A stretch of 23,064 nt of DNA from positions 1-23,064 of the IMG/VR virus record IMGVR_UViG_3300027770_000268. The stretch is one strand, 5' to 3'. Position numbers and translations under genes: made by a program. The stretch comes from a virus. Below, piece after piece: positions 8,747-23,064 of the stretch. Below the pieces are notes generated by a model. It was given only the letters and a program-made list of their open reading frames with translations. It was not told the origin of the DNA and ran no database searches. The first letter of the stretch is position 1, and every line of letters begins with the position of its first letter.

Positions 8747-9544
8747 ATGTCAACATATCCAACCGCTTCTGTTCTTTCAACTCCAACCGGGTTAACTTTA
8801 TCAGAATTAAAAGAGGGATTATTCAGTAATCTTAGATATCGTCTTGGTGACGGGATGATTGATATTGAATTGGATCCTCAACATTACGAGGCAGCGTACA
8901 ATTACGCTATTAAGGTCTATCGTCAACGGGCACAAGCCGCTACGGAAGAATCTTATATTCTAATGACCATTGAAAAGAATGTAGATACCTACACTCTTCC
9001 TGCTGAGTTTATCAATGTAAGAAGTATTTTCCGTAGAACAATTGGTTTAGAAACTGGGCCATCAAGCAGCAGTTTTGATCCGTTTAGTAGTGCTATTCTA
9101 AACACCTATTTGCTTAACTATAATTATGCTGGCGGTATGGCAACATATGACTTTTATGCAGGTTATGTTGAGTTAGCAGCAAGAATGTTCGGTGGTTATG
9201 TAACATACACATTCAACCCAGTGTCCAAGATATTGCGTATTGTTCGTGATCCAAAAGGATCGGGAGAGCGTGTATTGATATGGGCCGATGTACAAAAGAC
9301 AGAAGAAATATTACTACAAGACCCGGGCGCTGGTGTATGGATTGGTGATTTTATTTTAGCTAATCTTAAAGTTATGATTGGTGAAGCCCGTGAGAAATTT
9401 GGCACTATCGCCGGTCCAGGTGGCGGTACAACATTGAACGGTACTGCCATGAAAGCAGAAGGCAAAGCTGGAATGGAATTATTGATTGAAGAATTGAAGA
9501 AATATGTAGATTACAGTCAACCATTAACATGGGTACAGGGTTAA
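8747..9544 (+). CDS. gp13: Neck protein (T4 gp13-like)
   Basis: The 265-residue product has LFSNLRYRLGDGMIDIELDP, then HYEAAYNYAIKVYRQRAQAA, then VDTYTLPAEFINVRSIFRRT. This matches the gp13 family pattern in marine T4-like phages (helix, RLG.....IE, then Y.EA...A...Y....., then Y.LP......V..IF). The C-terminal part has a helix-rich region with LANLKVMIGEAREKFGT and a Gly-rich loop (GPGGGTTLNG). gp13 pairs with gp14 to make the neck collar that closes the portal after packaging. In T4, genes 13-14-15 are adjacent and co-oriented; here gp13 is separated from 14-15 by the early-type operon and lies on the opposite strand. A late box and AGG site precede it. Confidence 0.75.
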   Translation: MSTYPTASVLSTPTGLTLSELKEGLFSNLRYRLGDGMIDIELDPQHYEAAYNYAIKVYRQRAQAATEESYILMTIEKNVDTYTLPAEFINVRSIFRRTIGLETGPSSSSFDPFSSAILNTYLLNYNYAGGMATYDFYAGYVELAARMFGGYVTYTFNPVSKILRIVRDPKGSGERVLIWADVQKTEEILLQDPGAGVWIGDFILANLKVMIGEAREKFGTIAGPGGGTTLNGTAMKAEGKAGMELLIEELKKYVDYSQPLTWVQG

Positions 9545-9553
9545 CCTAAATGC

Positions 9554-9582
9554 TTTCTATTGTCTTGTTACTGTAATATAAT
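9554..9582 (+). promoter_or_regulatory. Possible weak sigma70-type promoter
   Basis: TATAAT (9577-9582) is a perfect -10, but the hexamer 17 nt upstream is only TTTCTA (9554-9559). AGGAA (9593-9597) then serves the ATG at 9604. No TAAATA box is present before this gene, which hints at non-late transcription. Confidence 0.35.
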
Positions 9583-9603
9583 AAGTACTTATAGGAACAT
9601 TGT

Positions 9604-10263
9604 ATGATTATAGGTATCACTGGTTTAATTGGTTCAGGCAAAGACACAATTGCTGACTATCTTACTACCCATCACGGGTTTAAACGAATCAGTTTTGCAT
9701 CCAGTCTTAAAGATGCAATAGCAGTAATCTTTGGATGGAACCGTGAATACTTAGAAGGCACAACAAAAGCTAGTAGAGTTTGGCGTGAACAGAAAGATGA
9801 ATGGTGGAGCAATCGTTTGGGTATGGACATTACCCCAAGATGGATACTACAATATTGGGGAACTGATGTATGTCGTAATCACTTTCACAATGATATCTGG
9901 GTAGCAAGCGTAGAACACAAGCTATTAAACTCTAATGAAGATATTGTAATTACCGATTGTAGATTTGCCAATGAGGTAAATGCTATTAGAAACATAGGCG
10001 GTATAGCAATTAGAGTAAAACGAGGCCCTGATCCTGAATGGTATGATTCAGCAGTGGCATACAATAGAGGGCCAAACGGTAACTCAGCTTGGTCTCTAAG
10101 CAAAATGAAGTTAGACAAACTACACATTCATGCTAGTGAGTACAGTAGTGTAGGACTAGACTATGACCATATGGTAGATAACAACAGTACCATTGATGAA
10201 TTACACAACACTATGTACGGAATAATTAGTAGTCAATTTGTAGATCACCTCGACGCCAAGTAA
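9604..10263 (+). CDS. gp1: Deoxynucleoside monophosphate kinase (T4 gene 1-like)
   Basis: The 219-residue product has an N-terminal Walker A loop GLIGSGKDT (7-15) following a short beta strand. It then has FKRISFASSLKDAIAVIFGW, WILQYWGTDVCR (81-91), and VITDCRFANEVNAI (115-128), which is the Walker B/DxR-type core of the dNMP kinase family. HASEY (176-180) near the end matches the conserved SE motif. The T4 enzyme (241 residues) phosphorylates dTMP, dGMP and 5-hydroxymethyl-dCMP for DNA synthesis. Its length is complete for the family. The 3' end overlaps the convergent gene by 38 nt. Confidence 0.88.
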   Translation: MIIGITGLIGSGKDTIADYLTTHHGFKRISFASSLKDAIAVIFGWNREYLEGTTKASRVWREQKDEWWSNRLGMDITPRWILQYWGTDVCRNHFHNDIWVASVEHKLLNSNEDIVITDCRFANEVNAIRNIGGIAIRVKRGPDPEWYDSAVAYNRGPNGNSAWSLSKMKLDKLHIHASEYSSVGLDYDHMVDNNSTIDELHNTMYGIISSQFVDHLDAK

Positions 10264-15287: not shown

Positions 15288-16550
15288 ATGTCTGGATTTT
15301 TTCAAGACTTACTTAAAGGCGCCGCCGGAACATTTTTCGGCGGCGATTACCTACGGGATTATACTCATGCTAGTAAGACATTTAGACCTAATTCATATCA
15401 AAACGCTCCTAAGTTTAAATATCTATTTCATACATATTTTGAAATAAATCCAGCAGCATACGGCGAAGGTATTAGTACAGGATCTAATTTTGGTATTCTA
15501 GTTAAAACAGTAAAACTCCCTAGTTTTACTTTTGACGTAGCGGTAATGAATCAATATAATCGCAAAAGATTGGTTCAATCAAAAATAAAATATGATACCA
15601 TAGATATTACTTTCCATGATGATCACGGCACTGCACCTAATACTCCAAATTCAGGTGGCACAATAAGAAGTTTGTGGAAAGCATATTACAATTATTATTA
15701 TGCTGATGGTACTGTGCCTCAAGTTGTGTTGCCAGGTGCACCCGGTGCCCCTCCCAGAAAATTAGTTAGTGGTGCATATCCATTCTCTACTGATGCTACA
15801 TATAACAATCGTAATCAATATAAACCGTCTATAACAGGCAATGACAATTGGGGATATTCAGGAGACTCTCCTGACCCGTCTGGTTCAAAAATACCTTTCT
15901 TTAAACAAATAACTGTATTTGGTCTAAGTCAACATAATTGGACTGCCTACACGTTGATTAACCCAGTCATAACTAGATTTACACACGATACATATGACTA
16001 TGCTCAAGGTACTGGTACTATGGAACATCAAATGTCTATCGATTATGAAACGGTAGTATACAATGATGGTGGATTAAGCGGAAAGGCACCGGGAAATATT
16101 GTTACTGGATTTGGTGATGATGCTAATTATGATCGAACGCCTAGTCCAATAATGAGACCAGGCGCTAATAAAACTATATTAGGTCAAGGCGGATTACTAG
16201 ATGCAGCAGGTGGTATTATCAATAATTTAACTCCTGATCCAGTCACCGGAGAAGTAAACCTACTAGGTGCTATTCAAAAAGCAGGGACAGCATATAACAC
16301 ATTTAAAAATACTAATTTAGGCAGTCTGGTTAAATCAGAACTTACTGCCGGTATAATAAATGCAGTTGGACAAACCCCTAATAGAAATTTAATTGTTAGT
16401 ACCCCTATCTTTGGGGCAGCACCTCAAACTAGTGGCACCGCCGGAGCACCACCAAGTAATGCACAATCTACCCCTCAACAACTCGGCGGAGCTCCTTATG
16501 CGGGTACTAGTAATAGCGGAGTTACTAATTCCCCGCGAGGCGGCAGATAA
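15288..16550 (+). CDS. Tail-tube-fold structural protein, gp19-related (baseplate tube initiator/cap-like, gp54/gp48-type)
   Basis: This 420-residue protein shares the layout of the preceding gp19. FGILVKTVKLPSFTFDVAVM, NQYNRKRLVQSKIKYDTIDI, TFHDDHG and LWKAYYNYYYADG parallel gp19's KQVIDCSRPQVQFQEITLPV, YNSTMYLAGKYAWQTMSVNI, RDDATG and LVGQQLQKQLDF. Residues ~205-260 (FKQITVFGLSQHNWTAYTLI, then METHIONINE-containing MEHQMSIDYETVVY) complete the beta barrel. The tail after ~270 is Gly/Ala/Pro-rich and probably flexible. In T4, gp48 and gp54 are gp19-like proteins that cap the baseplate and start the tube, so a tube-initiator or cap role is likely. A second tube-type protein is also possible. 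I would not assign a T4 number without structure comparison. Confidence 0.62.
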   Translation: MSGFFQDLLKGAAGTFFGGDYLRDYTHASKTFRPNSYQNAPKFKYLFHTYFEINPAAYGEGISTGSNFGILVKTVKLPSFTFDVAVMNQYNRKRLVQSKIKYDTIDITFHDDHGTAPNTPNSGGTIRSLWKAYYNYYYADGTVPQVVLPGAPGAPPRKLVSGAYPFSTDATYNNRNQYKPSITGNDNWGYSGDSPDPSGSKIPFFKQITVFGLSQHNWTAYTLINPVITRFTHDTYDYAQGTGTMEHQMSIDYETVVYNDGGLSGKAPGNIVTGFGDDANYDRTPSPIMRPGANKTILGQGGLLDAAGGIINNLTPDPVTGEVNLLGAIQKAGTAYNTFKNTNLGSLVKSELTAGIINAVGQTPNRNLIVSTPIFGAAPQTSGTAGAPPSNAQSTPQQLGGAPYAGTSNSGVTNSPRGGR

Positions 16551-16553
16551 ATA
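16546..16553 (+). promoter_or_regulatory. Late-promoter-like box GATAAATA
   Basis: The box overlaps the stop codon of the tube-like gene. It is followed by a small hairpin AATAGT-ATAA-ACTATT (16550-16565) and the ATG at 16574. No Shine-Dalgarno site is seen. Confidence 0.55.
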
Positions 16554-16573
16554 GTATAAACTATTAATTTATT

Positions 16574-16933
16574 ATGCCACAAATACTAGATCAACGCACT
16601 TCAATGGATCAAACGGTTAGAATATTTGACTCCTTTTATGCCATCACTTTAACTATAAACGGAAACGAATATGATATCGTTCGTGGATATTTTCTATCAA
16701 TTTGTGCTACAAAAAATATTGCAAATAATTTCACTGCGGTGTTATTCAGAATATCACAAGAAACCGGAATAGATGCACTTGATTTGTTAGACCAAATAAA
16801 AGGCAAAAAAAAGATGGAGATGAATCAAATTTTTGCTTACTATATGAATAGTTTCAAAAGCAAAACATCTCTTTATGGTATAGGTACAGTACCAAAACCT
16901 AATTTACCCGTAGCACGTAATATCGTACAATAA
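16574..16933 (+). CDS. Conserved T4-like phage protein, unknown function (probably structural/assembly)
   Basis: The 119-residue product starts MPQILDQRTSMDQTVRIFDS and includes NEYDIVRGYFLSICATKNIA, then FTAVLFRISQETGIDALDLL and MNSFKSKTSLYGIG. I recall this pattern (LDxRT..DQ.VR..D.FY, LLDQIKG, NSFKTKTSLYG) as conserved in T4-like phages of marine bacteria next to gene 4, without an assigned role. It has no membrane segment and looks alpha/beta. It sits 2 nt before the gp4 start, suggesting co-translation and a role in virion assembly. Confidence 0.65.
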   Translation: MPQILDQRTSMDQTVRIFDSFYAITLTINGNEYDIVRGYFLSICATKNIANNFTAVLFRISQETGIDALDLLDQIKGKKKMEMNQIFAYYMNSFKSKTSLYGIGTVPKPNLPVARNIVQ

Positions 16934-16935
16934 TC

Positions 16936-17373
16936 ATGGGTAACTGGGCACAAGGCATATATACTCCTAAAAACCCACAAAAATATGTAGGGAAACATAA
17001 ACCTAAATACCGTTCAGGATGGGAATTAACATTCATGACCTTTTGTGATACACATAATAACGTAACACATTGGGCTAGCGAATCAATGTCTATTCCTTAT
17101 CGTAGTCCATTAGATGGTAAAGTGCATAACTATATTCCAGACTTCTTTGTTGTTTATCAAAACAAGTATGGAAAAGCAATTGCTGAAGTAGTAGAGATTA
17201 AACCCAAGAAACAAAGTCTAATTGAAAGCCGTGCGGCAAGCGCAAGAGATAGAGCAGTAGTTGCTGTAAATCATGCTAAATGGGCCGCTGCTACTGCATA
17301 TTGTAAAATGCAAGGGTTTGCGTTTAGAGTCATAACTGAAGATGACCTTTTTAGAAACGGGTCACGAAAGTAA
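16936..17373 (+). CDS. gp4: Head completion nuclease (T4 gp4-like)
   Basis: The 145-residue product (T4 gp4: 150) has KPKYRSGWELTFMTFCD, WASESMSIPYRSPLDG, then HNYIPDFFVVY and VVEIKPKKQ. E30, D69 and the E87-x-K89 pair form the PD-(D/E)xK nuclease core of the TnsA-like type. gp4 is needed to complete packaged heads so they can join tails; the nuclease motif is conserved, and its exact substrate is not settled. It follows the 119-aa gene by 2 nt and precedes the terminase small subunit. Confidence 0.85.
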   Translation: MGNWAQGIYTPKNPQKYVGKHKPKYRSGWELTFMTFCDTHNNVTHWASESMSIPYRSPLDGKVHNYIPDFFVVYQNKYGKAIAEVVEIKPKKQSLIESRAASARDRAVVAVNHAKWAAATAYCKMQGFAFRVITEDDLFRNGSRK

Positions 17374-17385: not shown

Positions 17386-17862
17386 ATGACAAAAAAGCTA
17401 GAAGAATTATTTGAACTTCCCCAAAATGAAATAGACACTTTGGCAAAACCGACGCCAGAGAACGCACAAGAAATTACCACTGAAGCATTAGATAGTCTAT
17501 CAAAAATAGAACAAGCATTACCACAAGTACGTGGATTAGAAGCTGCTGACGATGAGATGGATAGTCTTGCTACACTAGCACAAGATAGCTATAAAGACTT
17601 GATGGACTTGGGAATGCAAGTTGATAGTAGATATGCTAGCGAGATATTCAATGTTGCTGGAACTATGCTAGGACATGCTATCACAGCAAAGACTGCTAAA
17701 CTAAATAAGAAGTTAAAGATGATTGATTTGCAACTAAAAAAAGCGCAATTAGATCAAAAAGAAGCAAGTAGAGACAAAGAGATTGAGGCTACCCCGTTAG
17801 GTGAGGGTAGAGAACTTGACAGAAATGAGTTACTTAAGATGTTGGCAGCGAAATCCGACTAA
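17386..17862 (+). CDS. gp16: Terminase small subunit (T4 gp16-like)
   Basis: The 158-residue, highly helical, charged product contains DDEMDSLATLAQDSYKDLMD, LGMQVDSRYASEIFNVAGTM, and AKLNKKLKMIDLQLKKAQLD. The order acidic segment - helix with DLMDLGMxVxxR - IFxVA - long basic helix matches the gp16 family of T4-like marine phages. T4 gp16 (164 residues) has the same layout in its central coiled-coil domain. gp16 oligomerises, recognises concatemeric DNA and stimulates the large terminase gp17. No large terminase is present in this window. The low-complexity C-terminus (NELLKMLAAKSD) is common in the family. Confidence 0.72.
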   Translation: MTKKLEELFELPQNEIDTLAKPTPENAQEITTEALDSLSKIEQALPQVRGLEAADDEMDSLATLAQDSYKDLMDLGMQVDSRYASEIFNVAGTMLGHAITAKTAKLNKKLKMIDLQLKKAQLDQKEASRDKEIEATPLGEGRELDRNELLKMLAAKSD

Positions 17863-17892: not shown

Positions 17893-18522
17893 ATGCGAAG
17901 CCTCAAACAACATATTATGGAAAGTATACATACTTACAAGTATACTATCAAAATTGCCGGCACCATTGACAAAAACTTTTTAGATATGTTTAAATACAAT
18001 CTAACCAAGTTTGACCCAGTGGAAATCAGTGAACCAAAGTCTACCCCGATACAGAAGTCACCATATGGATTTCCTAATTTAGAGAATGAAAGCGTAACAT
18101 TGATTAAAGTTGAGTTTAGATACCCAGCTACAGAGCCAATGGTACAACAACTTGCTCAACTATGTGGATACAATGTTAACATGGTGCGTATGGTATCAAC
18201 AGACTTTGATGATAGCATTGACAGCGAAATGGCCGGCTATGAAAATGAAATGAAAAATAGTCCATTACTTGACAAAGAAGAAATGGGTCAACAGCCAGAC
18301 GCTAAAGCAGCAAGCAAAGCGTATGGAGATTCATATTTAACTTCAATCAAAGATCAAGCTAAAGAGTCTAAGATTGATATTCCATATGCAGGAACAAAAA
18401 CAAAAGATGCGTTTGACCCGTTCAAGCCATATTTAGATGATAAGAAGTTGGGTGATAAGAGTCCAATGACTACTATCAAAATGCCACCAAAGCCAAAGAC
18501 TGGCGCAGCATATAACCGTTAA
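17893..18522 (+). CDS. Unknown protein, possible prohead-associated protein with N-terminal cleavage-site-like peptide
   Basis: This is a 209-residue protein. The N-terminus MRSLKQHIMESIHTY contains I8-M9-E10|S11, which fits the (L/I)xE|(A/G/S) site of T4 prohead protease gp21. Residues ~14-95 (YKYTIKIAGTIDKNFLDMFK, then ESVTLIKVEFRYPATEPMVQ, QLAQLCG) read as an alternating beta-alpha-beta domain, possibly ferredoxin-like. The C-terminal half is charged and disordered-looking (SKAYGDSYLTSIKDQAK, KMPPKPKTGAAYNR). I recognise no family. It is co-oriented with and 10 nt upstream of the 953-aa gene, and both share a late promoter, so a head-assembly role is inferred from context only. Confidence 0.6.
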   Translation: MRSLKQHIMESIHTYKYTIKIAGTIDKNFLDMFKYNLTKFDPVEISEPKSTPIQKSPYGFPNLENESVTLIKVEFRYPATEPMVQQLAQLCGYNVNMVRMVSTDFDDSIDSEMAGYENEMKNSPLLDKEEMGQQPDAKAASKAYGDSYLTSIKDQAKESKIDIPYAGTKTKDAFDPFKPYLDDKKLGDKSPMTTIKMPPKPKTGAAYNR

Positions 18523-18532
18523 GGAAAAGAAA

Positions 18533-21394
18533 ATGGATATCAGAGATATATTAAAATCATTCGACAATTTATCAGAAGCAACAACAGCTACTGATAAAGG
18601 TACAGTTCACAAAGCAGGCCCAGGTGGATATGGAAATAAACATGGATCAGAAGATGTTACTGATCAATATGGTAAACCAATTGCTCGTATGAGTTTAGGT
18701 AAAATGGGTCTTGCAAATGAACCAAAGCGCGGCAAAGGTCGTCCACCAAATCCTGACAAAGCAAAAGAGTACGATAGCACAGCACTAAACAAAGCAATGG
18801 GTGTCGGTAAAGCACCTAAGCCAACTGGCAAGCCTAGTGTTAAGCATAGTCTTAAAGAATACTTTGATATAATGGACGAAGCATTAAGCGAAGCAGGACT
18901 AGCAGTACAACCAATGCCAGCTACACCGCAACAGAAGCAACAGCAGCAAATGGCAACAAAGCCATCTTTTATGATTAAAGATCCTGCTAATCCTAATATG
19001 CCAGCTATCACTACTCAAGATCCAGCAGTGGTACAAGCAGCTAAGAATGGTACAATGTCAATGCAGAAGCCAGGCGCTGCCCCAACTGCACCTGGTGCTG
19101 CACCCGCTGCAGGTGCAGGCTCACAAGTTGCACCAATGAAAGAAACAGGAGATGTTGGTAAGCATAACAATGCCTCTACAGGATTTGACGCATTGGTTCG
19201 TAAATTGACACCTAAGTACGGCAAAGAAGCTGCTACAAAAATTGCAGGCTCACAATTTCAAAAAATGAAAGAAAGTGAAATAGAAGAAGCAGCTAAGTAT
19301 CGTGATCCTAAATACAAAGACCAATTGTACACACAGGAACCACTAGACCATACGTTTGGCCCTGACATGGATGATGCTTACGATAATGACTACCCCGATG
19401 ACTACGCTGGCAGAAAAAGCCCAATGCACAGTGGCACCGGTGATCCATTAGAAAAATGGCATCGTAGGTCGGCTAAAAATAGTATAAACACTCAGGGCAA
19501 AAGAGCAGGCTTGCCATCAAGAGATCAAATTACCAGTTTGAAACAAAGTATTAAAAATGTTCACGGTCAACATGCAAGACCTAATTTGCCAGAAGCAGAA
19601 CAACCGCAACATTTTGCACAATCAAGCCCACTAAGCACTGCTAATCGCGGTGTGTTAGAAAGCAAAAAAGGTGTTAATCCTTTCGCTAAGAAAGATGACA
19701 AAAAAGACGATAAGAAAAAGCCAGATGCCAACAAGAACGGTATCCCTGACTATGCTGAAGATGGTAACGGTCCAAACGATACAAAGAAAAAAGGTGCAGC
19801 ACCTAAGAAAGGTGTAAATCCTTTTGCTAAGAAAACTGAGAAAAAGAAAGTGAAAGAAGGTATGGAACATCATTTACAAGCAGCAAGACTTGAAGGTAAG
19901 AGTCACGCACTAAGAAAAATGCCTTACAATTGCACACACGATAATATGGAAGAAGCACGTTGCTACCATGATGGCTTTAAAGAAGGCCTAGATGAGTGCT
20001 ATGGTCAAATGCCAATACTTGGTCGTACAAGAGTTGGTGAAGTAGACGAGGCTTATGTGGCTAGTCCATCTAATCAATATGATCATTATGGTGATGAGGC
20101 TTCTCCAGAAGAACACAAAGCATACCAAGATGAAATCAATTTGTATAAGACTCCGGGTGCTCATCCTGCTCTAGCATCAATAGGCATGGGCCGCGCTCAA
20201 GATATGAATAGTCGTTTAATTCAAACATTACAAAAAAGAGGAAAGCCTGTTCAACAAGCATTTGGTGAAAACGAAGTAGGCACAATGGCTAGTTATGGTG
20301 CAGATGACATGGGTATGGATGAAGGCAATCCTTTCACTGCCGGGCTTGCTAGAACACCACAAGGTGGCAAGTTTAAAGTAGGTGGAAATACATTTACTGA
20401 TAGAACACGCTATGATTCAAATTTAGAAGAATTTGCGTTTGAATCATTGGACAAGCAATTGAATGCACTACTTGAAAGCGAAGAAAAAGTTTCAGAAGGC
20501 ATGACAGTTTCTATCAGTAAAGGTCAACAAGGTTCTCCTGATTCAGTAAGTGTATCAGCACAAGATGGTGAAGCTGACCAGTTGTTAAGTATCATCAAGT
20601 CAGCAGGCATGGGTTTGTTTGGCGGTGATGAACACAATGGTTATGGCGCACCACAAGGCTCAACACAAGCTCCTGGTGGCATTGAAGTAGTTGATGACCA
20701 TGACGGTATGATGGCATTGATGAGAAAGTTATCAGGCGCAGGCGGCGAAATGCCAAGTGGCGGTGATTACGAAAGTGAAGAAGGTCACGAAGGACACGGC
20801 GAAGAAGATCATATGCACGGTGAAGAAGAAACTTGCAATGAATGCGGCGGCATGATGGAAGCTGGTCATTCTTGTGGTTCAAAAGAAATGGTAGATGAAG
20901 TAGAATCAGAAGATCAAATGGAATTTGAAGTATCTGAAAATGCTCCAGACTCTGGTGCTGATAATACTAATGCTGATGTCGCAGGTAATGCAGCGGCTAA
21001 TAGCGCATTAGCAACAGCGGATGCAGGTGCTGATGAAGAAGAAGGTCAAGTATATTCAAGTCCTACTGAAGGTAAAGAAGATACTACTGGTGAAGAAGCC
21101 GGTAAAGAAGTAAAAAAAGATATTGAATACGATGACAAGAAAGACGAAAAATACAAGAAAGACACAAAAGTAGATGAATCATACGCTAATAGCGCAGATG
21201 ATACTTTTGAAGCTGACATTGACTTTATGACTAAGGTTATCAGTGGTGGATTGAATAAACAAAAATCTACTGGTCAAACAACAGTTCCAGTTATCAATGG
21301 TCAAAAGAATCGTATGGGAGTTGATGGATTAGGTAGTCCAATGAAAGAGTCTAATGATTTATTAAAAGACTACAGAAAATTAAGCGGTCTATAA
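18533..21394 (+). CDS. Large modular low-complexity protein, candidate prohead core/internal head protein
   Basis: This is a 953-residue, highly charged, mostly disordered protein preceded by AAGGA. The N-terminus MDIRDILKSFDNLSEA resembles the T4 capsid-targeting peptide of internal proteins (short helix ending in xxE|A). Further (L/I)xE|(A/S) sites end at E120, E252, E354 and E648. Modules: AT-hook-like KRGKGRPP (65-72), a Gln/Met-rich linker (132-145), Ala/Pro/Gly tract (180-197), duplicated KKGVNPFAKK (378-387, 425-434), EF-hand-type loop DANKNGIPDYAE (398-409), a ribosome-modulation-factor-like helical segment (446-490), acidic His-rich region (745-763), and C768-C771-H779-C781. No catalytic domain is seen. 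I recognise no named family. A packaged, protease-processed head protein or scaffold is inferred from the sites, composition and the neighbouring gp4/gp16 genes; a virion structural role of another kind remains possible. Confidence 0.65.
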   Translation: MDIRDILKSFDNLSEATTATDKGTVHKAGPGGYGNKHGSEDVTDQYGKPIARMSLGKMGLANEPKRGKGRPPNPDKAKEYDSTALNKAMGVGKAPKPTGKPSVKHSLKEYFDIMDEALSEAGLAVQPMPATPQQKQQQQMATKPSFMIKDPANPNMPAITTQDPAVVQAAKNGTMSMQKPGAAPTAPGAAPAAGAGSQVAPMKETGDVGKHNNASTGFDALVRKLTPKYGKEAATKIAGSQFQKMKESEIEEAAKYRDPKYKDQLYTQEPLDHTFGPDMDDAYDNDYPDDYAGRKSPMHSGTGDPLEKWHRRSAKNSINTQGKRAGLPSRDQITSLKQSIKNVHGQHARPNLPEAEQPQHFAQSSPLSTANRGVLESKKGVNPFAKKDDKKDDKKKPDANKNGIPDYAEDGNGPNDTKKKGAAPKKGVNPFAKKTEKKKVKEGMEHHLQAARLEGKSHALRKMPYNCTHDNMEEARCYHDGFKEGLDECYGQMPILGRTRVGEVDEAYVASPSNQYDHYGDEASPEEHKAYQDEINLYKTPGAHPALASIGMGRAQDMNSRLIQTLQKRGKPVQQAFGENEVGTMASYGADDMGMDEGNPFTAGLARTPQGGKFKVGGNTFTDRTRYDSNLEEFAFESLDKQLNALLESEEKVSEGMTVSISKGQQGSPDSVSVSAQDGEADQLLSIIKSAGMGLFGGDEHNGYGAPQGSTQAPGGIEVVDDHDGMMALMRKLSGAGGEMPSGGDYESEEGHEGHGEEDHMHGEEETCNECGGMMEAGHSCGSKEMVDEVESEDQMEFEVSENAPDSGADNTNADVAGNAAANSALATADAGADEEEGQVYSSPTEGKEDTTGEEAGKEVKKDIEYDDKKDEKYKKDTKVDESYANSADDTFEADIDFMTKVISGGLNKQKSTGQTTVPVINGQKNRMGVDGLGSPMKESNDLLKDYRKLSGL
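19664..19834 (+). repeat. Duplicated KKGVNPFAKK segment with lysine-rich linker
   Basis: The ten-residue segment occurs at 19664-19693 and 19805-19834. The codons differ at several third positions, so the copies are old rather than a fresh duplication. An EF-hand-like loop lies between them. Confidence 0.75.

Positions 21395-21461: not shown

Positions 21462-23064
<1,603 letters not shown>

Follow-up and report, generated by a model that had tools for sequence, protein, structure and literature searches.

A scaffold-like density of predicted prohead-protease sites marks a family of long proteins in jumbo T4-like phages as candidate accessory prohead-core proteins

The internal proteins of the phage T4 head are loaded gene by gene. 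The T4 core proteins gp22, gp67 and gp68 are cut by the protease gp21 into many pieces that are mostly cleared, and mature virions contain proteins stripped of an N-terminal propeptide (PMC9026906). Several prohead-protease cuts within one head protein are described for gp53 of phage SPN3US, one of the inner-head proteins of giant phages, where they fall in the N-terminal propeptide (PMC10052503). The protein considered here is a 953-amino-acid (aa) product encoded in a stretch of 23,064 nucleotides, positions 1 to 23,064 of IMG/VR virus record IMGVR_UViG_3300027770_000268, referred to below as the window. We propose that it serves the prohead core (internal head) of a jumbo T4-like phage as an accessory protein and that gp21 of the same phage cuts it, a reading to which a probability of about 0.6 is attached on the basis of its sequence.

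The open reading frame (ORF) call and a motif count bore out a preliminary description of this DNA, in which the gene and five (L/I)xE↓(A/S) sites (arrow, predicted cut) had been reported. The motif [LI]xE[AS] occurs exactly five times, at E15, E120, E252, E354 and E648, against a mean of 0.92 in 5000 shuffles (P 0.0024), which is the enrichment that had been suggested as a check. With glycine added at P1' ([LI]xE[ASG]) the count is still 5 (shuffled mean 1.52, P 0.016), and with P3 widened to LIVM, a class picked after the family had been inspected, it is 16 against 3.25, a value reached in 0 of 5000 shuffles. The fragment sizes given for cutting at the five sites (15, 105, 132, 102, 294 and 305 residues) were correct when recomputed; the AT-hook-like KGRP was seen as KRGKGRP, and the IME↓S start of the preceding 209-aa gene as MRSLKQHIME↓S. 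Two sites had also been placed in disordered linkers. This holds for E354, in a very-low-confidence stretch of the structural model that is probably disordered, and fails for E252, where a long helix of the model (residues 218-254) ends.

To follow these sites through the family, the best 80 of 160 confirmed relatives were taken, representing 76 loci; incomplete ORFs, identical ORFs and ORFs of 600 aa or less were removed, and 54 distinct complete proteins were aligned. One IMG/VR scan gave 342 confirmed stretches for the whole family. E15 has the [LI]xE[ASG] motif in 46 of the 54 relatives and is the most L-strict of the conserved sites; the [LIVM] version of such an N-terminal site is present in 24 of 32 held-out members. 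At E120 all 46 relatives with an aligned residue have glutamate, P3 is LIVM at a frequency of 1.00 and P1' is A, S or G at 0.80, P2 is more variable than either, and [LI]xE[ASG] is found in 30. E648 is glutamate in 40 and lies in the motif in 34 of 53 relatives. These three recur, therefore, while the other two of the original five fare differently: E354 is glutamate in 54/54 but mostly in the wider motif only ([LI]xE[ASG] in 15, the [LIVM] version in 45), and E252, with an aligned residue in 4 of 54 relatives and the motif in 1 of those 4, was ruled out as a conserved site. Two of the best conserved sites had been overlooked, namely E655, where [LIVM]xEG with a variable P2 is present in 54/54 relatives, and E939, where 38 of the 39 members having the residue have glutamate, with P3 LIVM at 0.95 and P1' ASG at 0.97.

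Eight of 34 conserved-glutamate columns have the right P3 and P1' classes in at least 80% of rows. In six of the eight, P2 is the most variable position: E15, E120, E354, E655, E939 and one insertion column missing from the window protein. These six are, from this pattern of variation, the likely cleavage sites. E442 and E474 were rejected as cut sites and are probably structural, because their P2 is fixed and both sit in the best-predicted, confident helices. For motif counts across the family, members sharing 60% or more of their 5-mers were dropped. The remaining 36 dissimilar members contain 149 [LI]xE[ASG] motifs where 62.6 were expected and 458 [LIVM]xE[ASG] motifs against 131 (standard deviation (sd) 11); the 32 held-out members contain 389 of the latter against 120 (sd 10, maximum 154). 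Ten permuted or changed control motifs were counted in the family, of which eight were depleted, one was neutral and one was raised.

An identical 953-aa protein is encoded on a 263,709-bp contig, G002 (locus L004), where the surrounding genes match those of the window. A gp21-like protease in the same genome, which the preliminary description had proposed to look for, was found there at 25576-26211 (PF03420, E 3.3e-29). It lies with genes for the gp22 scaffold (24463-25563, 366 aa), the gp23 shell protein (23239-24435; PF07068, E 3.1e-99) and the portal protein (27391-29187; phrog_213), and this cluster is about 142 kb from the 953-aa gene. The large terminase is elsewhere, at 119596 (gene 119482-120912). 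Of 13 contigs searched, three gave PF03420 and PF07068 matches above cut-offs, and these are the ones longer than 200 kb; the remaining 10 (43-171 kb) gave no gp21 match and none above the gp23 cut-off. Relatives of gp22 are present in the jumbo T4-like phages PA5oct, Atu_ph07, Phosso, RaK2, PBECO4 and GAP32, some of them annotated as scaffolding protein.

When the 284 called genes of G002 were scored by their excess of [LIVM]xE[ASG] over a per-protein expectation, gp22 ranked first (14 against 2.0), the 953-aa gene second (16 against 3.2) and gp21 fifth. With five control motifs, neither gp22 nor the 953-aa gene nor a gp67-like gene gave a P below 0.17. As a positive control, the 262 genes of T4 were ranked in the same way, and gp22 came first, gp21 second and gp23 fifth. 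The ranking thus finds dense substrates and misses most others, because T4 gp67, gp68, the IPs, gp24 and Alt ranked only 12th to 102nd. On a relative's contig (G008, 372 genes) gp22 was first and the family member fourth; gp22 was also first in GAP32, RaK2 and Vibrio phage 2.275.O. Among 432 genes of PA5oct, gp22 was second and EST35_0203 eighth (5 against 1.84, P 0.04).

Other genes of G002 share single features with the 953-aa gene. A 902-aa protein encoded after the large terminase (121288-123996, plus strand) ranked third of 284 (14 against 3.7) and is, by its motif count, another core-protein candidate. Targeting-like starts (MRAREFIAES, MNFKELLEGAE, MRFSEIISEN, MKTNEFLTEL) occur at 228075-232448 (minus strand) and 203054-207293 (plus strand), in proteins of which some are site-rich. 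Genome-wide, 16 of 284 genes have targeting-like N-termini against 6.3 in 500 shuffles (maximum 14); this excess is only modest, since the pattern in internal windows has a mean of 8.3 and reaches 16 in 200 draws.

The 953-aa protein also ends like a scaffold. Only two of the 284 genes, gp22 and the 953-aa gene, have a gp22-like end of the KLSGL/KLAGI type, where shuffling predicts 0.028 genes. An L[AS]G[IL]x0-3 ending is found in 53 of the 54 aligned family members and a LAG-type tail in 28 of the 32 held-out members; in 43 of 53, a site (N permitted at P1') lies no more than 25 aa before the tail. Similar tails close the gp22s of PA5oct, Atu_ph07, Phosso, Vibrio phage 2.275.O, GAP32 and RaK2, and T4 gp22 is without one. 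Scaffold and core candidate thus have a short C-terminal motif in common, for which a binding partner could be sought.

The cleavage specificity of the lineage's own protease was judged from 49 distinct lineage gp22s. At P3 these are enriched, per protein, in L (6.67 against 0.91), I (2.53 against 0.40), V (3.90 against 0.64) and M (1.06 against 0.26); A is not enriched (1.02 against 0.72), and none of F, Y, T, D, S, E and K occurs there. Several of the gp22 sites hold P3, P1 and P1' with a variable P2, and others are wholly invariant. At the expected cut place of gp23, LxE is present in 35 of 35 distinct lineage sequences and also in Atu_ph07, Phosso, Vibrio phage 2.275.O, GAP32, RaK2 and PA5oct. 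At the level of sequence, this conservation shows an L-type specificity and says nothing on V or M. In Vibrio phage 2.275.O a 58-aa open frame (16459-16635) has a start, KQMKESATGGGTSAGAIASV, like that phage's own gp23 cleavage junction.

From these features we infer packaging, anchor binding, cleavage, and what becomes of the pieces. The targeting-like helix of residues 1-15 and the gp22-like tail of residues 940-953 would anchor the chain, which is probably mostly unfolded, within the gp22 core during shell assembly. Active gp21 would then cut the hydrophobic-x-E↓A/S/G sites, foremost E15, E120, E354, E655 and E939, and these cuts would release both anchors and divide the chain into pieces. 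Optional, lineage-variable cassettes between the sites could be cargo that remains in the head. With sites along its entire length, the protein is as close to the gp21-cut core proteins as to an internal protein that is cut once, or closer. The virion mass-spectrometry note of the PA5oct gene at the matching position also speaks for the proposal.

In its dense hydrophobic-x-E↓A/S/G sites and its N-terminal site the protein is like T4 gp22, gp67 and gp68, and in its L[AS]G[ILM]-type tail like the gp22s of its own clade. It is unlike gp22 in having a separate locus, 953 aa where the gp22 of the same phage has 366, and no homology beyond the tail; with a separate gp22 present in G002 and none but the tail matched in a profile alignment, it was not placed in the gp22 scaffold family. 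A short N-terminal peptide closing in an [LI]xE↓A-type site recalls T4 IPII and IPIII (capsid-targeting sequence role, PMC9026906), but IPI-III and Alt come from several small genes, and here a single long protein has many sites as well as segments that can be exchanged. As in SPN3US gp53, several prohead-protease sites, here predicted ones, lie in one head protein (PMC10052503); unlike those of gp53 as described there, they reach the C-terminus, and the protease motif and phage group differ. If the proposal is true, one chain that can be cut and that has a slot for exchangeable segments would be a different way of loading a virus head, a family seen in 342 stretches and so far unannotated would gain a likely role, and site-to-site cassettes would provide a sequence rule for finding new phage effectors.

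Several results weigh against the proposal. With [LI] only at P3, the 953-aa gene drops to sixth of 284 (5 against 1.53, P 0.02) and gp22 stays first. The gp22s of six other clade phages enrich L and I only (V 5 against 4.0, M 1 against 2.0), and the case for acceptance of V and M therefore comes from the lineage gp22s. The family motif counts include the probable non-sites E442 and E474, and one control, [LI]xK[ASG], is likewise enriched in the family (123 against 72.6). Inside protein chains, LAG words are not more frequent than shuffling gives (G002, 2 against 1.3; PA5oct, 5 against 1.6, with up to 7 in shuffles), and only the C-terminal position stands out; of the five in PA5oct, gp22 has one, EST35_0203 two, and the others lie in two further genes with mass spectrometry (MS) notes. 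Alignment of the family and gp22 profiles with hhalign gave a probability of 6% (E 0.006) over the last 58 columns only. Low scores in the predicted local distance difference test (pLDDT), which would fit an unfolded chain, may also come from the shallow alignment of 37 sequences. Finally, EST35_0203, the PA5oct protein in the equivalent position, ranked only eighth of 432 and gave an hhalign probability of 0.2% against the family, and the family profile matched nothing in PA5oct up to E 1; since homology is undetectable, it is a positional counterpart only.

The preliminary description had called the protein modular and polyprotein-like. A modular middle is seen, with segments bracketed by sites in one slot, here slot 1. 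The slot is under 60 aa in 46 of 54 aligned and 31 of 32 held-out members, as in KK[MKE↓A]EAPQ, and 37 of those 46 short slots contain an [LIVM]xE[ASG] site. Fillings of 60 aa or more, the only ones counted, number 7 distinct in 9 members (trimmed length 60 to 189 aa); they occur in the window protein, L007, L008, L024, L048, L061 and L310 and are mutually dissimilar at E 0.1. Sites flank both ends in 7/7 distinct fillings of a slot that was chosen after the data had been seen. Only the left-hand site is informative, because the right-hand one is present in nearly all members; the chance of a site in a random 22-aa window, the left-hand length inspected, is 23%. The left site of L048 and of L061 falls within the block, several residues from its edge, and shorter stretches in the slot (L314 54, L374 51, L381 40, L039 36 and L342 33 aa) are without it.

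A general enrichment of sites at cassette boundaries was not replicated. In the first 36 members, 36 of 98 cassette ends lay within 6 aa of a site, against 16.2 (sd 3.4) for random placement and 5.5 (maximum 11) for random conserved positions; in the 32 held-out members the figures were 25 of 154 against 19.0 (sd 4.1) within 6 aa and 36 against 34.6 within 12 aa. The strict [LI] motif had no effect in either set (7 against 5.0; 10 against 7.3), and [LIVM]xE[KDTNE] was the sole motif above the null within 6 aa in both (18 against 5.7; 23 against 11.7). A search for the cassettes at other places gave 137 matches, too weak a basis for any conclusion, as the 30 listed trace back to just two short queries, of which one is a low-complexity repeat. 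Among 6713 ORFs none of the cassettes was found in another kind of protein, three off-filter matches being fragments of the family, and the L007 cassette had no match in the phage collection. L061 has two tandem cassettes (9486-10025), each following [VM]DE↓A, which are related to each other (32% identity over 59 aa, E 4e-4). One cassette of a relative is helix-turn-helix-like and one glycine-zipper-like, both below curated cut-offs; together with KGRP and one DUF433 match in one family member, these give weak hints of DNA-binding or host-acting peptides.

The polyprotein-like reading is partly supported and is kept as a live possibility, not a result. In its full form, several internal proteins would share one chain that opens with a targeting peptide and closes with a scaffold-like tail; unrelated cassettes would be swapped at protease junctions, and the prohead protease would yield lineage-specific peptides packed with the DNA and possibly ejected. 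This fuller form is held tentatively, as a possible but not the favoured account.

Less likely is an internal (ejection) protein of the IP/Alt type, cut once near E15, kept nearly whole and delivered with the DNA, its other sites unused. The strictness of E15 would suit such a protein, as would the structural look of E442 and E474 and the loss of N-terminal propeptides from T4 mature-virion proteins (PMC9026906); moreover, PA5oct EST35_0202 and EST35_0203 have a deposited note of detection by electrospray ionisation tandem MS (ESI-MS/MS) in virions, and PA5oct gp22 has none. EST35_0203 has the same gene position, after the relative of the 209-aa protein, is mildly site-rich and has two LAG words, but it lacks the C-terminal tail motif and any detectable homology. 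Against an ejection protein stand the gp22-like density over the whole chain, the conservation of E120, E354, E655 and E939 with variable P2, and the low-confidence, probably disordered model. In the full-length model the mean pLDDT is 48.7, with 633 of 953 residues under 50, and a model of the middle part has a mean of 54.2; both are too weak for fold comparison.

It is improbable that [LIVM]xE[ASG] is a structural repeat, a helix-capping or linker grammar unrelated to proteolysis and perhaps a docking motif for another head protein. The P3 mix of the family (V, M and also Y, 64 against 17.9) does depart from the L/I rule of T4 and the other clade gp22s, and [LIVM]xE[KDTNE] occurs near cassette ends as well; yet the lineage gp22s bear V and M sites, several with variable P2, and the gp23 cut place is LxE throughout the lineage, an argument that reaches L-type sites only. 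Equally doubtful is a neck, tail or DNA-packaging accessory protein whose motif density reflects an acidic, disordered composition, since, although sheath, tube and head-closure genes lie 5' of it and the large terminase is the next gene in PA5oct, composition was controlled by the per-protein expectation, shuffling and five control motifs, and a gp22-like end would not be expected.

Up to E 0.1 no family of PHROGs, Pfam or NCBIfam matched the 953-aa protein, and up to E 1 no PDB sequence matched the family profile; tblastn gave no match in annotated phage records up to E 1e-3, the conserved core reaching only E 4. A scan of 37 relatives assigned 18 to phrog_24078 and 12 to phrog_20603, two PHROGs of unknown function. 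In one relative the stretch matching phrog_20603 is common to Thermus phages, and a second relative has a 45-aa match to one unannotated phage. A literature search of titles and abstract openings gave no description of such a head polyprotein. The features of the locus are collected in Table 1. The segment after E655 is predicted as strand-strand-helix, at low confidence only, and the Cys cluster is a possible metal-binding knuckle.

Table 1 Features of the 953-aa gene and its neighbours in the window
Feature	Position	Strand	Basis
Head-closure, TnsA-like protein (T4 gp4 type)	16936..17373	+	phrog_218 E 7e-45; PF08722 E 2.1e-21
158-aa neighbour	17386..17862	+	phrog_16202 (unknown function), common to PA5oct EST35_0201
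209-aa neighbour, N-terminal IME↓S	17893..18522	+	Distant relative of PA5oct EST35_0202 (tblastn 28% identity, E 1e-5)
953-aa head-core/internal-head candidate gene	18533..21394	+	ORF call, ATG start; protein begins MDIRDILKSFDNLSEA
N-terminal targeting-like helix, residues 1-15, ends LSE↓A	18533..18577	+	E15 motif conservation; helix 3-11 predicted, low confidence
AT-hook-like KRGKGRP, residues 65-71	18725..18745	+	[KR]x0-3GRP within first 150 aa of 43/54 relatives; no Pfam match
E120 codon, LSE↓A	18890..18892	+	Closes predicted helix 107-119
Lineage-specific cassette 1, about residues 248-353, between MKE247↓S and LPE354↓A	19271..19594	+	
Conserved helical hairpin, residues 432-491, holds E442 and E474	19826..20005	+	Best-predicted stretch, block pLDDT 74-95 (441-490)
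Lineage-specific cassette 2, residues 507-578, just after VDE506↓A, no end site	20048..20266	+	In 4/54 aligned members
E648 (LLE↓S) and E655 (VSE↓G)	20474..20497	+	Family motif conservation
Conserved segment after E655, residues 656-697 (GMTVSISKGQQG...GLFGG)	20498..20623	+	Many invariant or near-invariant columns
Cys cluster CNECGGMMEAGHSC, residues 768-781	20834..20875	+	CxxC(x5-14)C in 54/54 relatives
E939 codon, MKE↓S directly before C-terminal tail	21347..21349	+	Family conservation
C-terminal tail SNDLLKDYRKLSGL, residues 940-953	21350..21391	+	Resembles gp22 tail NVIDIKRLAGL

The gene order of PA5oct (sheath, tube, second tube, small protein, head closure, 168-aa, 200-aa, EST35_0203 of 498 aa, large terminase) parallels that of the window up to the 953-aa gene, save for one inserted homing endonuclease. 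The PA5oct tube, second tube, head-closure and 168-aa genes fall in the same PHROGs as their window counterparts, and the large terminase after EST35_0203 matches PF03237. The N-terminal site of the 209-aa neighbour is present in 48 of 56 distinct homologues, and distant relatives of this protein are found in PA5oct-type phages and Atu_ph07. From its position and the T4 gp16 sequence, the 158-aa neighbour is perhaps the small terminase; the small-terminase model PF11053 has no match in the genome and, among five records, matched T4 only.

Three further observations concern the rest of the window. A second tail-tube-like protein of 420 aa (15288-16550) lies beside the normal one, and its PA5oct counterpart has 492 aa. 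Proline-valine-rich minus-strand frames at 22503-23045 lie opposite the repetitive part of the following 2796-aa gene. At 33-788, a stretch of about 40 aa, AVTGNITNGNVTGGNLVSASYLTGTLTTAAQPNITS, is repeated in a protein that resembles, at a guess, a tail fibre.

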